Assembly (NCBI RefSeq): GCF_014644455.1
Contig: NZ_BMKS01000001.1
Coordinates: 248,001 to 312,000, forward strand
Direction: 5' to 3'
Length of the DNA: 64,000 nucleotides
Origin: Caldovatus sediminis
Lineage (GTDB): Bacteria; Pseudomonadota; Alphaproteobacteria; Acetobacterales; Acetobacteraceae
Of this stretch, positions 16,831 through 21,732 are shown in pieces. Below the pieces are notes generated by a model that was not told where the DNA came from, made no database searches, and saw only the letters and a program-made list of their open reading frames with translations. Every line of letters begins with the position of its first letter. Position 1 is the first letter of the stretch. The translations under genes and the position numbers were made by a program.

Positions 16831-19134
16831 TCATCCCTCCCGCACGCCCGCCAGCCGCAGCCCCTCCGCGTAGTGCGCACGGTCCTCGGGGCGGCGCACC
16901 GGCGCGCGGCGCAGGGCCTTCGCCACGGTGAAGTCCGGCTCGATCGCGAGCAGGCGCGCGCGCAGCGCCGCCGCCGCCTCGCGCCGGCCGAGATGGCCGA
17001 GCGCGGCGAGGGTGCACTTGTAGTTGGCGCTGAAGTTCGGCTGCAGCTCGATCGCCTGCCGGCCGTGCTCGGCCGCCTCGGCGTGGCGACGCGTGAAGAG
17101 CAGGGGGATGACGCGCGCCCCGTCGTAATAGAACGAGAAGGGGTGGAAGGGCGCGAGCTGCCGGTAGCGGTCCATCCGGGCCAGCGCCTCGGCATGGTCG
17201 CCGGCGTAGCTGTGCGCCATGGCGGAGAAGGCCCAGGCCATGGCGAGGTTGGGGTTGAGCCCCAGCGCGCGCTCGTGCAGCGCCAGCGCGTCCTCCGGCC
17301 GCTGGTGCAGGAAGGCGCGGACATGGCCGCAGATCGTCAGCGCCTGCGCGTCCTGAGGATCGAGCGCGACGGCCCGGACCGCGAGGCGCTCGGTGCGGGC
17401 GAGCACCTCCTCGCCGTCGCGCGCCCAGCCCTGGCCGATGAGCAGGAGGTGCCAGTAGGCGAGCCAGGCATGGGCCGCGGCGTAGTCGGGATCGAGCGAG
17501 GTGGCGCGCGCGAGCCACTCCCCGGCGGCCATGAAGGCGCTGCGGTCGAGCCGGTGCAGGGCCGGGATGGCGCGCAGCACCAGGTTGTAGGCGGGGACGT
17601 TCACCGGCGGGCGCCCGGCGGCGACCCGGCCGGCCTCGATCAGCAGGATCTCGGGATCGATCCGCGCCACCACCTGGGCCGCGATCTCGTCCTGCAGCGC
17701 GAGGAGGTCGTCGGCCTCGCGGTCGAACCGCTGGGTCCAGGCCACCCCCTCGGGCGGGCGCAGGTCGAGCAGGGTGAGGCCGATCCGGATGCGCCGCCCG
17801 GCACGCTGGAGCGTGCCGGTCAGCAGCAGGTCGAGGCCGAGGGCGCGGGCCGCCGCCTGCGCCTCGCGCGGCCCGCCGCTGCGCGCGGCGGCGGCGGCGA
17901 GGGAGGCGCTGTCGGTCAGGAACAGCCAGCGGAAGCGGGCCAGGGCCGCGGTGATCTCCTCGGCGAGGCCGATCGAGAGGGCCTCCGACTCGGCTTCCTC
18001 CGTGCCGCCGAGCACGCGCAGCGGCAGCACGCCGAGGCGCGCGCCGCGCAGCGCCGCGGGCGGCGCGCCGCGGGCCGTCGGCGCGGCGGCGCCGGCCGGC
18101 GGCGGCGCGCTCGGGGCGACCTGCGCGACGCCGGCGTCCTCCCGCAACGCCTGGGCGAGCGCCTCCGTCTCGGCCGACGGGCGGGCCTGGAAGCGGGTCG
18201 CCAGGATCTGGCGACAATCGGCATAGGCGGCGAGCGCGGCCGCACGGTCGCCGCGCGCCGCCTCGGCGCGGATCAGGGCCCGCCAGGCGCCCTCCTGGGC
18301 CGCGTCGATCGAGAGCACGCGCCGTGCCGCGGCGACGCTCGCCTCCGGGTCGAGGGCGGCCGCGAGCCGCGCGGTGGCGACCAGGAGGGCGGCGTCGCGC
18401 AGGCGGCGCCGCTGCTCGGCAAGCCACTGGTCGAAGGCGTCGTCGAGGCCGTCGAGATCGGCGAGCAGCTCGCCCGCCCCGAGCAGGTCGAGCGGCTCCG
18501 GTTGCTCGGGCGTGGCGCGCAGGACTTCCCGGGCGTCGGTCCAGACGGCGGCGAGGTCCATCGCGACGGTGGTCCGGCTGGCGACGATCACCGGGAGCCC
18601 GACGGGGCGGAGCGATTCGTGCAGCTCGTGCAACGCCTGGCGCAGCGAGCCGCGCGCCTGCTCGTTGCCGCGGCGCGACCAGAGCAGGTGGGCGAGCCGC
18701 GACCGGGCGACCGGCTGCGGCCCCGAGAGGGCTAGGATGGCCAGGAGCGCGCGCGCCTTGCGGGTGCGCGGCAGCACGCGTTGGCTCGTCAGGCTCCAGG
18801 CGTCCACGCGGCCGAGCAGCGTCAGCCGCAGCCGGATCTCGGGGCGCGGGCGGTCCCCGGCCGAGGACGGCGCGGGGCGGCCATCCACAGGGACCGGCGC
18901 GACCGCCGTGCCCGGGCGCGCCTCGCCCTCCGGCATGGCGCGGAGCCAGCCTGCGGCCGCGGTCATTGCCGGACCCTGCCCGGCTGTGCCATTGCGGGCG
19001 GCGGGCGAACTGCCACCGCGCAGCAGCAGCCCCGAGGAAACGGGGGTGGGGGTTGTACTTCCGGCAGCGGCCGGGGCCGGCACACGCTGCGCGGACGCAT
19101 GGCCCTCGCCGCTTGGCGCCGCGACACCATCCAT
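16831..19134 (-). CDS. BTAD/SARP-like transcriptional regulator with C-terminal TPR array
   Basis: A regulator of about 767 residues. After a disordered Pro/Ala/Gly N-terminus (about 1-100) comes an OmpR-like winged-helix segment (RLRLTLLGRVDAWSL and KARALLAILALSG...RLAHLLWS), a bacterial transcriptional activation domain of helical repeats (to about 340), a FlgO-like/adenylate-cyclase-associated segment (LGVLPLRVLGG ... GLAEEITAALARFRWLFLTDS ... LLLTGTLQRAGRRIRIGLTLLDL) and then several TPRs. Known relatives sense by protein-protein contact. ATG 19132-19134 coincides with the predicted transcription start; a GTG at 19140 or internal ATGs at 18966 or 18936 are alternatives. Target unknown. 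Confidence 0.85.
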   Translation of the reverse strand: MDGVAAPSGEGHASAQRVPAPAAAGSTTPTPVSSGLLLRGGSSPAARNGTAGQGPAMTAAAGWLRAMPEGEARPGTAVAPVPVDGRPAPSSAGDRPRPEIRLRLTLLGRVDAWSLTSQRVLPRTRKARALLAILALSGPQPVARSRLAHLLWSRRGNEQARGSLRQALHELHESLRPVGLPVIVASRTTVAMDLAAVWTDAREVLRATPEQPEPLDLLGAGELLADLDGLDDAFDQWLAEQRRRLRDAALLVATARLAAALDPEASVAAARRVLSIDAAQEGAWRALIRAEAARGDRAAALAAYADCRQILATRFQARPSAETEALAQALREDAGVAQVAPSAPPPAGAAAPTARGAPPAALRGARLGVLPLRVLGGTEEAESEALSIGLAEEITAALARFRWLFLTDSASLAAAAARSGGPREAQAAARALGLDLLLTGTLQRAGRRIRIGLTLLDLRPPEGVAWTQRFDREADDLLALQDEIAAQVVARIDPEILLIEAGRVAAGRPPVNVPAYNLVLRAIPALHRLDRSAFMAAGEWLARATSLDPDYAAAHAWLAYWHLLLIGQGWARDGEEVLARTERLAVRAVALDPQDAQALTICGHVRAFLHQRPEDALALHERALGLNPNLAMAWAFSAMAHSYAGDHAEALARMDRYRQLAPFHPFSFYYDGARVIPLLFTRRHAEAAEHGRQAIELQPNFSANYKCTLAALGHLGRREAAAALRARLLAIEPDFTVAKALRRAPVRRPEDRAHYAEGLRLAGVREG

Positions 19135-19140
19135 GCTCAC

Positions 19141-19169
19141 AGTTTAATCAACCGCATTGGTTATGTCAC
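19141..19169 (-). promoter_or_regulatory. Sigma-70-like promoter of the BTAD regulator gene, predicted leaderless
   Basis: On the minus strand GTGACA (-35; 19169-19164) and TAAACT (-10; 19146-19141) are separated by exactly 17 nt. The predicted +1 base is 19134, the A of the ATG. This lies in an AT-rich island in otherwise very GC-rich DNA. No Shine-Dalgarno sequence could precede that ATG, so translation would be leaderless if this promoter is used. Confidence 0.5.
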
Positions 19170-19180
19170 CTAACGGTTGA
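19149..19180. promoter_or_regulatory. Inverted repeat over the BTAD regulator promoter
   Basis: TCAACCG (19149-19155) and CGGTTGA (19174-19180) are perfect inverted repeats, extending imperfectly to about 10 bp per arm (TAATCAACCG / CGGTTGATAA). They flank the -35 box and spacer, so a repressor or autoregulator could bind here. AACC-GCATT-GGTT forms a second small inverted repeat inside. Confidence 0.45.
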
Positions 19181-19370
19181 TAAGGCCGCGCCATTGCATC
19201 GGATAGGTGCGGTCGAGGGGCGGTCTGCCCCCTTGGCCCGCACCGGGGATCGCGGGACGCGGCGCCGCCCTGCCCGTGGCGCTGCGGCCGGCGGGCAGCG
19301 CGAGAGGAGGACAGGCGCACCGCGCAGGCCGACCCGCATCCGTCGCGTCCGGCCGGGGGGCATGGCGCCG

Positions 19371-19706
19371 CTACGCCGACTCGTCGTGACCGCGCGCATC
19401 GCGTTCGCGCACGGAGCGCATGGCCTGTCCGGCTGGCGCGGGCGCCGTTCGCGAAGGTGCGGCGTCCATCGCGCGCACCGCCCTGCGCAGTTCGCGCGCG
19501 GCGCGTTCGAGCCGGAAGGCGAGCGCATCGCGTTCGACGCCCTCGGCGAAGGTGAGGGGCGATGGCGCCGCTGCGGCCGATGAGGCTGCGGCCTCATCGT
19601 GAGCGGCGACGAAGCGGCGCGCGGTCTCGATCACCTCGAGGAACGCCGCTCCCGGTTCGGGCTGGGAACCCGGAGCCGGGGCGTCCCGCCTGACGATTGC
19701 GGTCAT
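19371..19706 (-). CDS. Small hypothetical protein, possibly CtrA-regulated
   Basis: A 111-residue protein that I do not recognise. The N-terminus is Pro/Ala-rich, then AFLEVIETARRFVAAHDEAAA and LTFAEGVERDALAFRLERAARELRRAVRAM (split over 50-80) form two amphipathic helices, and the tail is charged. There are no Cys, no membrane segment and no signal peptide. The main support for a real gene is the helix pattern and a perfect CtrA-type box about 90-100 nt upstream. The ATG is at 19704-19706; the Shine-Dalgarno is weak. It could still be a spurious frame. Confidence 0.5.
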   Translation of the reverse strand: MTAIVRRDAPAPGSQPEPGAAFLEVIETARRFVAAHDEAAASSAAAAPSPLTFAEGVERDALAFRLERAARELRRAVRAMDAAPSRTAPAPAGQAMRSVRERDARGHDESA

Positions 19707-20081
19707 CCGTCACCGTCGCTCGCGATTCCGTGATTTCACATCCACAATGCCGCGCCGCGGGCCGCGAGGCGCGTCAGAAGCGCCCGGCAGACGTTAATTT
19801 TGGGTTAATTCAACGACAAGGCCCTCAGACGCCCGGCCGGCGCCATGGCATGTCCCCGATCCCGCCCCGTCGCACGGCGAGCGCGAGCGCACGCCGCGGA
19901 TTCCGGCCGATCCGCTCCGCGGCGCGGCATGGCCACGGCACCCGTGCGCCGCGGCAGCGCCATACATGCGGCTCCACCGCGCGCGCCAAGGGAAGGCCGG
20001 CGCTGCTCCCGTCGGCGGTGACCGCTCCTTGCGCGCCGCGGGGCAGCACGCAAGGCAGGTGCCGCCGCTCTGCCCACGCGA
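19707..20081. other. 375-base region with AT-rich island and CtrA-type box
   Basis: It lies between the small hypothetical gene and the end of the TTC38-like gene, both minus strand. The part at 19720-19815 is markedly less GC-rich and contains the TTAA-N7-TTAA element. The rest (19830-20081) has open frames rich in Arg/Ala that match nothing. Confidence 0.5.
19793..19808 (-). promoter_or_regulatory. CtrA-binding consensus TTAA-N7-TTAAC
   Basis: On the minus strand the sequence reads TTAACCCAAAATTAAC, a perfect match to the alphaproteobacterial CtrA consensus TTAA-N7-TTAAC. TTAA is rare in this DNA, so a chance match is unlikely. It is 87-102 nt upstream of the small hypothetical gene at 19371-19706, a normal distance for CtrA activation or repression. 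Confidence 0.6.
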
Positions 20082-21446
20082 TCAGTCCGTGACCCCGGCC
20101 GCCGTGGCGGTGTCCGCGGCGAGACGCCGCGCGAACAGGCTGTCCGGCTTCGCCGCGCGCCGCGCCTCGGCCATCGCCCGCGCGGCGCCCACCTCCCCGG
20201 CGCGCAGCAGCGATTCCGCCAGGGTCAGCGCGATCACGTCCCGCTGCGCGTGCGAGCCGCCGAAGCGGTGCGCGATCGGCGGCAGCGGCGCGAGCAGCGC
20301 CGCCGCCTCCCCCTGGGCGCCGCGGTCGAAGGCGACCAGCGCGCGGCCGAGCGGCAGGCCGATGTCGCGCGCGAGCGCCGCGTTGCCGCCGGCGCTCGCC
20401 GGCGCGGAGGCCGCACGCTCCAGCGCGGCCAGCGACCGCGTCGCCGCCTCCCGCCGCCCGGCGCCGAGATGCGCCATGATCCCGTGCACGTCGTTGAAGG
20501 CGTAGCAGCTCTGCGGCCCGGCGAGCGTCGCCGCCCAGGCGTCCGAGACCTCCGCCCAGCGCGCCGCGCCGGCGTCCACGCCGATCAGGCGCAGCCGCCA
20601 CAGCATGGCGCTGGCGTCCACCAGCTCCAGCGCCGGCGGGGGCTGCGGCCCGCCGGCGCGGCCCGGCCGCACGCCGCGGTCGTAGAGCGCCAGGGCCTCG
20701 GCAACCTCGCCGCGGTCGAGGTGGAACAGCGCCCGATGCCACCAGTTGTGGCAGGCGAGCAGGTTCCCCGGCGCCCAGTCCGCCTCGCGCGCGGCGAGCC
20801 AGCGCACGCCCTCCTCCGCGCGGCCCTGCATCTCCATCACGTGCGCCACGGCGTGGATCGCCCAGGCGTCGCGCGGGTCGAGCGACACGGCGCGGCGGCC
20901 CGCCTCCTCGGCCGCCGCGTTGCCCCCGCACTCCTCGAGGCCGAAGGCCTGCATGACGGGGATGTGGCCGAAGCCCGGCTCGCCCTCGCGCCAGGCGGCG
21001 AGCGCGGCGGCGGGGCGGTCGCGCAAGGTCTCGCGCCGGCCGAGGAAGAAGTCGAGCTGGTGCGCGACCTGCAGCGCGAAAAGGTCGCGCGGCCAGGCGG
21101 CGACGATCGCGCCGTAGCCCTCCCGGGCGCGGTCGAAGTCGCGCCCGAGCCAGGCGGAGGCCGCGACGATGTGGGCGCGCTCGCGCTCGTTGGTGCGGGC
21201 CTCGCGCGCGGCGGCGACGCTCCCCGCCGCCTCCGCCTCCAGCCCCTCCTCGGTGGCGCAGAGCAGCAGGCCCGCGCGCATCAGCTGCGCCATGGCGCAG
21301 TCGGGCGCCTCGGCGAGGGCGGCGTCGAGCTCGGCCATCGGGTCGGCGCGGAAGCGCGCGAACAGCGCGCCGGCCCGGTCGAGATGCCCGACCGCGGCGC
21401 GGGAGCCGGTGGAGACGGCAAGGCCGTTGGCGTCGGCGAGCGGCAT
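20082..21446 (-). CDS. TTC38-like tetratricopeptide protein
   Basis: A 454-residue all-helical TPR protein. The order of elements matches the TTC38 family found in bacteria and animals: MPLADANGLAVST start, CAMAQLMRAGLLL, SLDPRDAWAIHAVAHVMEMQGRAEEG, the diagnostic LLACHNWWHRALFHLDRGEVAEALALYD (split over 245-275), then DVHGIMAHLGAGR. It has no signal peptide. Function of the family is unknown; TPRs imply a scaffold or chaperone role. The ATG at 21444-21446 follows a GGAGG site. It is downstream of a tiny DUF1127 gene on the same strand (112 nt). Confidence 0.88.
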   Translation of the reverse strand: MPLADANGLAVSTGSRAAVGHLDRAGALFARFRADPMAELDAALAEAPDCAMAQLMRAGLLLCATEEGLEAEAAGSVAAAREARTNERERAHIVAASAWLGRDFDRAREGYGAIVAAWPRDLFALQVAHQLDFFLGRRETLRDRPAAALAAWREGEPGFGHIPVMQAFGLEECGGNAAAEEAGRRAVSLDPRDAWAIHAVAHVMEMQGRAEEGVRWLAAREADWAPGNLLACHNWWHRALFHLDRGEVAEALALYDRGVRPGRAGGPQPPPALELVDASAMLWRLRLIGVDAGAARWAEVSDAWAATLAGPQSCYAFNDVHGIMAHLGAGRREAATRSLAALERAASAPASAGGNAALARDIGLPLGRALVAFDRGAQGEAAALLAPLPPIAHRFGGSHAQRDVIALTLAESLLRAGEVGAARAMAEARRAAKPDSLFARRLAADTATAAGVTD

Positions 21447-21558
21447 GGGAGACCTCCGTGGCGCGCGTGGGACCGGGGGCGTCCGCGGCGCCCGGCCGGC
21501 GGCGGGTGCGCGGCGGCCCTGCGCCGCCGCCCCGTCACCGGCGAGCGCCGCGGCGGCG

Positions 21559-21732
21559 TCAGCGCCGGTCCGGGCGGATCGGCGCCGCCGGTGCGACACG
21601 CGGCAGGCCGACGTCGCGGCGGAGACGATCGTCCAGCTCGCGCAGGGAGCCGGCGGTGGTCCAGCCGCCCAGGCGCCTGCGCAGGCGCGCGGCCGGCACG
21701 GCCGGGAAGGCCGCAGCGTGCAGCATCGTCAT
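21559..21732 (-). CDS. DUF1127-family small basic protein
   Basis: A 57-residue protein: after MTMLHAAAFPAVPAARLRRR comes the DUF1127 core WTTAGSLRELDDRLRRDVGL, with the typical Leu-x2-Leu-x-Asp-x2-Leu-x-Asp-(I/V)-G-(L/I) pattern. The ATG is at 21730-21732 with a GAGGA ribosome binding site (GAGGACC) just upstream; a second ATG 6 nt further in is possible. Short DUF1127 proteins are known to affect phosphate and carbon metabolism or bind RNA in alphaproteobacteria. It lies upstream of the TTC38-like gene and may share its transcript. Confidence 0.82.
   Translation of the reverse strand: MTMLHAAAFPAVPAARLRRRLGGWTTAGSLRELDDRLRRDVGLPRVAPAAPIRPDRR

Follow-up and report, generated by a model that had tools for sequence, protein, structure and literature searches.

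Does a perfect CtrA box in a GC-rich genome identify a target of CtrA, or can such a match be part of a different control element? The question is raised by a 64,000-nucleotide stretch of the Caldovatus sediminis genome (hereafter, the window; G+C content 75.3%), on whose minus strand the 16-mer TTAACCCAAAATTAAC (positions 19793-19808) reads TTAA-CCCAAAA-TTAAC, i.e., a full match to TTAA-N7-TTAAC, upstream of a gene for a 111-residue protein. A sequence-only reading had taken this 16-mer for a CtrA site located some 90-100 nt before the gene, and had considered the match meaningful given how rare TTAA is here. The match is indeed present; it ends 86 nt and starts 102 nt 5' of the ATG at 19706. 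The tetramer TTAA occurs only three times in the window (at 19144, 19794, and 19805) and two of these copies build the 16-mer, while TTAA-N7-TTAA has a single copy in the window and never arises in 100 dinucleotide shuffles of it. At the scale of the complete genome (G000, 4,797,000 bases) this is the sole TTAA-N7-TTAAC, and an exact CtrA-type box is also present in G001, one of the two further genomes of the genus (G001 and G002). The site is real and non-random, and very probably regulatory. However, the match exceeds chance because what is conserved is a different, degenerate element of which the 16-mer is one variant. The features discussed below are collected in Table 1.

Table 1 Coordinates of the features at the locus (positions in the window) and, in the last two rows, of the repeat-peptide ORFs (positions in the respective fetched loci)
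Feature	Position	Strand	Basis or remark
SARP/BTAD-TPR regulator, 769 residues (SARP domain, residues 103-335)	16831..19140	-	Profiles and fold
Conserved stretch TATCAACCGTTAGGTGACA just 5' of the regulator gene	19164..19182	-	Identical in 3/3 genomes of the genus
Small protein, 111 residues, unnamed family	19371..19706	-	Homologues, AlphaFold2
Predicted -10 element CATTGT, 22 bp past half-site 3	19744..19749	-	Family consensus YANNNT
Half-site 3 core TGACG, 20 bp (one turn pair) past half-site 2	19772..19776	-	Alignment
Half-site 2 TTAACG, 11 bp after half-site 1	19792..19797	-	11-bp direct repeat in 19/19 regions (at most one mismatch)
Half-site 1 TTAACC, columns 0-5 of the array	19803..19808	-	Alignment of 19 regions; about -71 from the predicted start
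TPR-like protein, upstream	20082..21599	-	Among the 19 loci, only in the window and G002
Repeat-peptide ORFs	L060 8395, L062 8162, L064 7878, L068 7904, L071 4734, L072 1320	+	
Repeat-peptide ORFs	L061 7547, L063 7175, L065 6944, L067 2446, L069 7856, L074 6972	-	

The small protein and the adjacent regulator

Among the 60 genomes searched, the ORF behind the element has homologues in three further genera as well as in the two other genomes of the genus (E-values 1.3e-25 and 7.6e-22), and we therefore consider it a real gene. A profile built from six members matched 26 of the 397 family genomes, a count that is a lower bound, as 13 candidates were scored per genome and two g70 genomes missed there were found later; two of the matches (G003 and G150) look false. 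The members in g121 are weak, yet they are supported by the DUF6065 gene that adjoins them as it does other members of the family, and by the g70 loci, where proteins 51% identical to a g121 member are encoded between DUF6065 and the regulator. Searches of Pfam, NCBIfam, and PHROGs returned no family for the 111-residue protein, just as the sequence-only reading had held, and by sequence comparison it is a member of an uncharacterised, unnamed family. AlphaFold2 (5 sequences) models the protein as a two-helix hairpin (residues 18-45 and 53-82; mean pLDDT 75.8) in which the helices are confident (pLDDT 79-95 by blocks over residues 21-80) and the ends are not. A fold search against solved structures retrieved only generic hairpins (best E-value 0.81).

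The gene that follows on the same strand encodes a much larger protein, in which the Pfam BTAD domain is recognised with 39.7 bits over a cut-off of 22.1 (E-value 8e-10) and Trans_reg_C weakly (E-value 0.021, below the cut-off). A profile built from its N-terminal part can be aligned to AfsR (1.7e-4, over positions 1-225) and, in two parts, to EmbR (6.8e-8), and its AlphaFold2 model (mean pLDDT 87.0) finds both in Foldseek with a probability of 1.00, the TM-score (query) to AfsR being 0.59-0.66. The AfsR profile alignment over positions 1-225 together with the AfsR fold match points to an N-terminal winged helix of the OmpR type, and judging from profiles and model the protein is a SARP-type regulator, composed of an OmpR-like winged helix, a BTAD domain, and TPR repeats. 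It differs from AfsR in that no NOD/STAND model was found among its Pfam matches up to an E-value of 1, and from EmbR of Mycobacterium tuberculosis, which shares the fold of the SARP domain, in the TPR repeats that stand where EmbR has an FHA domain. Regulators of this kind are widespread, with matches (E-value at most 1e-40) in 203 of the 397 family genomes and in 62 of 102 genera.

The two genes keep constant company. In all 19 loci compared (the window and 18 fetched loci), the small gene lies 5' of a regulator homologue on the same strand; 17 of these pass an adjacency limit of 700 bp measured from the blast match, and in the other two (L059 and L073), where the match starts inside the regulator, the start of the regulator ORF is 312 and 152 bp, respectively, from the small gene. 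The TPR-like gene upstream is, given its restricted occurrence (Table 1), outside this conserved core. Between the two core genes, TATCAACCGTTAGGTGACA is possibly a second control element or a promoter of the regulator. As a separate observation, an inverted repeat surrounds this stretch in the window, and partly similar stretches are seen in G018 and G331. A tRNA scan of the window returned none.

A direct-repeat array in orthologous promoters

The 19 orthologous upstream regions were brought into register by an anchored alignment. Of the 26 genomes matched by the profile, G003 and G150, whose ORFs are long and unrelated, do not enter these counts, nor does G088, in which the small gene is split over two frames, and the four g121 genomes (G122, G256, G287, and G333) were kept apart. 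The aligned consensus is TTVACG-N5-TTVACG-N15/16-TVACG followed by a -10-like element, the spacer before the third half-site being 15 bases long, or 16 in three regions (L002, L011, and L024). With at most one mismatch, all regions except L013 (18 of 19) carry the three-part element, whereas 60 sets of 19 dinucleotide shuffles yield no copy of it, and the two-repeat part with its 11-bp period is found in every region (on average 0.12, and at most 1, in the shuffles). Exact TTAA-N7-TTAA, in contrast to the degenerate element, is seen in only three regions (shuffles: mean 0.03), one of them off the aligned place, so that the exact box occupies the aligned site in G000 and G001 alone. The third base of half-site 1 is G in eight promoters, C in six, A in four, and T in one (G or C in 14/19), and that of half-site 2 is C in nine, G in seven, and A in three (G or C in 16/19). 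Half-sites 1 and 2 together are the reported CtrA box, and as their third base is degenerate among the orthologues, this box is the variant with A at that base in both half-sites (the A/A variant). A TTAA-N7-TTAA in G018 (L005/L007) does not count as conservation of the box, the orthologous element there being TTGACGGGGCCTTGACG. It had also been expected that the variable third base would track the recognition helix of the regulator, but no such pattern could be made out by eye.

Column statistics refer to the 15 regions of the N15 class, i.e., excluding L002, L011, and L024 (N16) as well as L013, which has no half-site 3. Within this class, the T, A, C, and G of half-site 3 are each present in 15 of 15 regions. 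In the -10-like YANNNT, the Y (column 59) and the A (column 60) are kept in all 15 and the T (column 64) in 10, and a purine follows seven bases further on in 14 of the 15 (column 71, window position 19737), which we take as the predicted transcription start.

The array is a near single-copy element, about one per genome. The three-part N15 pattern, when one mismatch is allowed, has 19 matches in 18 genomes, 14 of them at the small gene and five elsewhere (reversed control, 4); the exact pattern has 17 matches in the 397 family genomes, 11 at the small gene and six elsewhere (reversed control, 7), and no homologues of the small gene, the regulator, or DUF6065 were found in the flanks of these six. 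Such near single-copy occurrence argues for a dedicated rather than a global regulator.

The two-repeat motif by itself is less specific, with 13 of its 24 matches in the 18 genomes lying elsewhere (reversed control, 10), and as a set these off-locus matches fit chance. One of them precedes a CtrA-like regulator (G115). The CtrA-like regulator of L075 (1074-1871) reaches 146.6 bits with the NCBIfam CtrA model, below its cut-off, with the CtrA-type DNA-binding domain matched and no Pfam match to a receiver domain, and its gene lies upstream of an ORF that by eye is lytic-transglycosylase-like. Another match, TTCACGGCCGCTTCACG (L055/L076, G209:C207), stands before a TPR-like gene resembling, by eye, that at 20082-21599 of the window and beside another BTAD-TPR regulator; it is compatible with chance, while its company is suggestive.

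Beyond the main clade, the array recurs in altered form. Of up to five repeat registers, the main clade retains 2, 3, and 5, and g70 (two loci) and g121 (four loci) retain about 3, 4, and 5. In the genus g126, an array of five repeats (at 0, 11, 22, 31, and 42) stands directly before the regulator gene in 8/8 genomes, in none of which the six-member profile detected the small gene; one of the eight shows a strict YANNNT at the same distance, and six others have an AT-rich stretch near there. In G331, too, array and regulator are present and no small gene was detected. Spacings of 20-21 bp, plus 9-10 bp in some clades, depart from a strict 11/22 pattern. In g121, no regulator was found within about 6 kb 3' of the small gene and array; it sits on another contig of the draft assembly, and any action there would therefore be in trans. 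The recognition helix of array-bearing regulators reads SLRQA, or SLRQS in g70, while that in the clade without the array reads SLRQEIHRL in eight; in the latter clade, the regulator is located closely behind another gene. Promoter loss and changed helix are thus confounded, and the correlation of the helix with the array is weak evidence.

Candidate readers of the array

We consider it probable, from the sequence comparisons above, that the array is a dedicated direct-repeat operator of the SARP-like regulator, serving positive autoregulation of its own operon. The array comprises VTNACG-type half-sites in up to five registers before the -10-like element, with the 16-mer as its promoter-distal pair. 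The predicted promoter would drive a probable operon, in which gene 1 encodes the small helical-hairpin protein and gene 2 the SARP-type regulator, both presumably co-transcribed from the start predicted at 19737. The encoded regulator would bind the repeats side by side and, once bound, would recruit RNA polymerase to its own operon. Known SARPs, as described in PMC10936776, are activators that use an OmpR-type winged helix to bind, side by side, to direct repeats with a spacing of 11 or 22 bp, and that contact sigma region 4. The same period here counts for a SARP binder, as does the presence of the array before the regulator itself in g126, where the small gene was not detected.

The comparison with the afs box of AfsR from Streptomyces coelicolor, as presented in PMC10936776, is close in several respects: the regulator there also combines winged helix, BTAD, and TPR, the direct repeats have an 11-bp period, and half-site 3 of our array (about -40 to -35 relative to the predicted start) matches the upstream afs repeat (-40 to -30) in position. 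Unlike the afs box, however, the array belongs to Alphaproteobacteria, uses the half-site VTNACG, has extra upstream repeats, and occurs about once per genome, before the regulator's own operon. Moreover, its proximal repeat core lies 22 bp from the -10-like element, whereas in known SARP promoters the 3' repeat is 8 bp from the -10 (PMC10936776), and for this reason we do not file the array as a canonical SARP box. This distance counts against a SARP binder, as do the gap between array and regulator in g121, the departures in spacing, and the single strict YANNNT among the eight g126 genomes.

Another OmpR-family regulator could also bind the array. An unlinked response regulator of the OmpR/PhoB family with an 11-bp repeat site would make the SARP-like gene the target and not the binder; the half-site and its period suit the entire class of OmpR-type winged helices, and in g121 the regulator does not adjoin the array. 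However, with about one array per genome, placed before the SARP-like gene even where the small gene was not detected (g126), this arrangement appears unlikely. We also weighed whether the SARP-like regulator, perhaps together with the small protein, shuts off its own operon through the array as a repressor operator. The sequence is compatible with either sign of regulation, and a helical small protein adjoining the regulator could be its partner; yet SARPs are described as activators (PMC10936776), and the repeats (about -71 to -35) are positioned 5' of the -10-like element and not over it, and we rate repression as rather improbable.

The proposal of the sequence-only reading, that CtrA is the regulator, fares worse than its description of the site. 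Phosphorylated CtrA would, in that case, bind TTAA-N7-TTAAC and place the operon under cell-cycle or motility control. The CtrA box is likewise an 11-bp direct repeat, bound by an OmpR-type winged helix. Apart from the perfect match in window and genome and the exact box shared with G001, it can be said in its favour that G000 does encode CtrA (L118, G000:C1:32252-32887; 384 bits with NCBIfam CtrA NF045991, cut-off 350), and that the motif is in mild excess: across 18 genomes TTAA-N7-TTAAC has 16 matches at 12 places, against six matches at six places for N6 and 11 at eight for N8. Two of the 12 places are the small-gene promoter itself, and a reversed-pattern control (41 matches versus 16) is unfair, as AATT and TTAA differ in frequency. 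On the other hand, TTAA is not conserved in the orthologous promoters, of which 2/19 have the exact box at the corresponding position and in which the third base is degenerate; the genome holds one perfect site although a global regulator should have more; and the array tracks the SARP-like gene. The predicted centre of the pair, furthermore, is near -63 of the predicted start and does not overlap -35, whereas CtrA-activated promoters of Caulobacter, as described in PMC11264516, mostly have one site at -35. Thus, while CtrA could bind the A/A variant in the window's genus, the site is unlikely to be part of a CtrA network, and we regard CtrA control of the operon as decidedly doubtful. Finally, a chance match or artefact is refuted for the element, and has next to no probability, given its absence from 100 window shuffles and its conservation across genera; chance stands only for the TTAA look, which two degenerate positions becoming A by drift would account for.

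DUF6065, repeat peptides and wider meaning

On the side of the small gene that faces away from the regulator, 16 of the 18 fetched loci carry a DUF6065 gene (PF19541), and the two exceptions are those of the window's genus. The three genomes of this genus (G000, G001, and G002, the last 78% complete) yielded no DUF6065, and all of them keep small gene, array, and regulator. In 12 of the 16 DUF6065 loci (Table 1), a short ORF of 54-107 aa with one to three copies of a unit like ADAGxVRLGAG(M/L)R is placed between DUF6065 and the element and reads divergently from the small gene; the regular expression for the repeat peptide gave no match in L059, L066, L070, and L073. More distant genera also have repeat-peptide ORFs beside DUF6065, e.g., with six units of the SVADKGxVRxGAGMR type in L161, where they amount to near-identical cassettes, and three in L163, and further cases are L171, L172, L189, L190, and L191.

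Judged by its sequence, the repeat ORF could be a RiPP precursor with multiple cores, and DUF6065 is a candidate for the modifying enzyme. Multi-core RiPP precursors with a linked enzyme form a general class, which these short ORFs with one to six ADxGxVRxGxG copies beside DUF6065 resemble; they differ from it in that DUF6065 is without known activity, no product is known, and DUF6065 was not found in the window's genus. Among open-licence papers, searches on DUF6065, VRLGG-type peptides, and RiPPs of Acetobacteraceae found nothing on such a system, and neither did searches on SARP/BTAD in Acetobacteraceae, alphaproteobacteria, and Roseomonas.

We tentatively propose, as a possibility well short of the probability we attach to autoregulation, that a hitherto undescribed peptide system exists in the Roseomonas group and that the operon is its control unit. 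Such a system would combine the SARP-like regulator with its autoregulated array, the hairpin protein as a partner, and DUF6065 modifying a multi-repeat ADxGxVRLGxG peptide in a RiPP-like manner. The window's genus would have kept the regulatory half after the loss of peptide and enzyme, and drift of two degenerate bases in G000 and G001 would have turned its operator into a perfect CtrA box, from which a takeover by CtrA could begin.

These results correct a plausible regulon assignment and illustrate how misleading a perfect match to a consensus can be when the genome is GC-rich. They provide, at the level of sequence, a candidate operator for part of a SARP-like family that is widespread among these bacteria (203 of 397 family genomes), define an uncharacterised family of small proteins, and draw attention to repeat peptides and DUF6065 as a candidate RiPP-like system.
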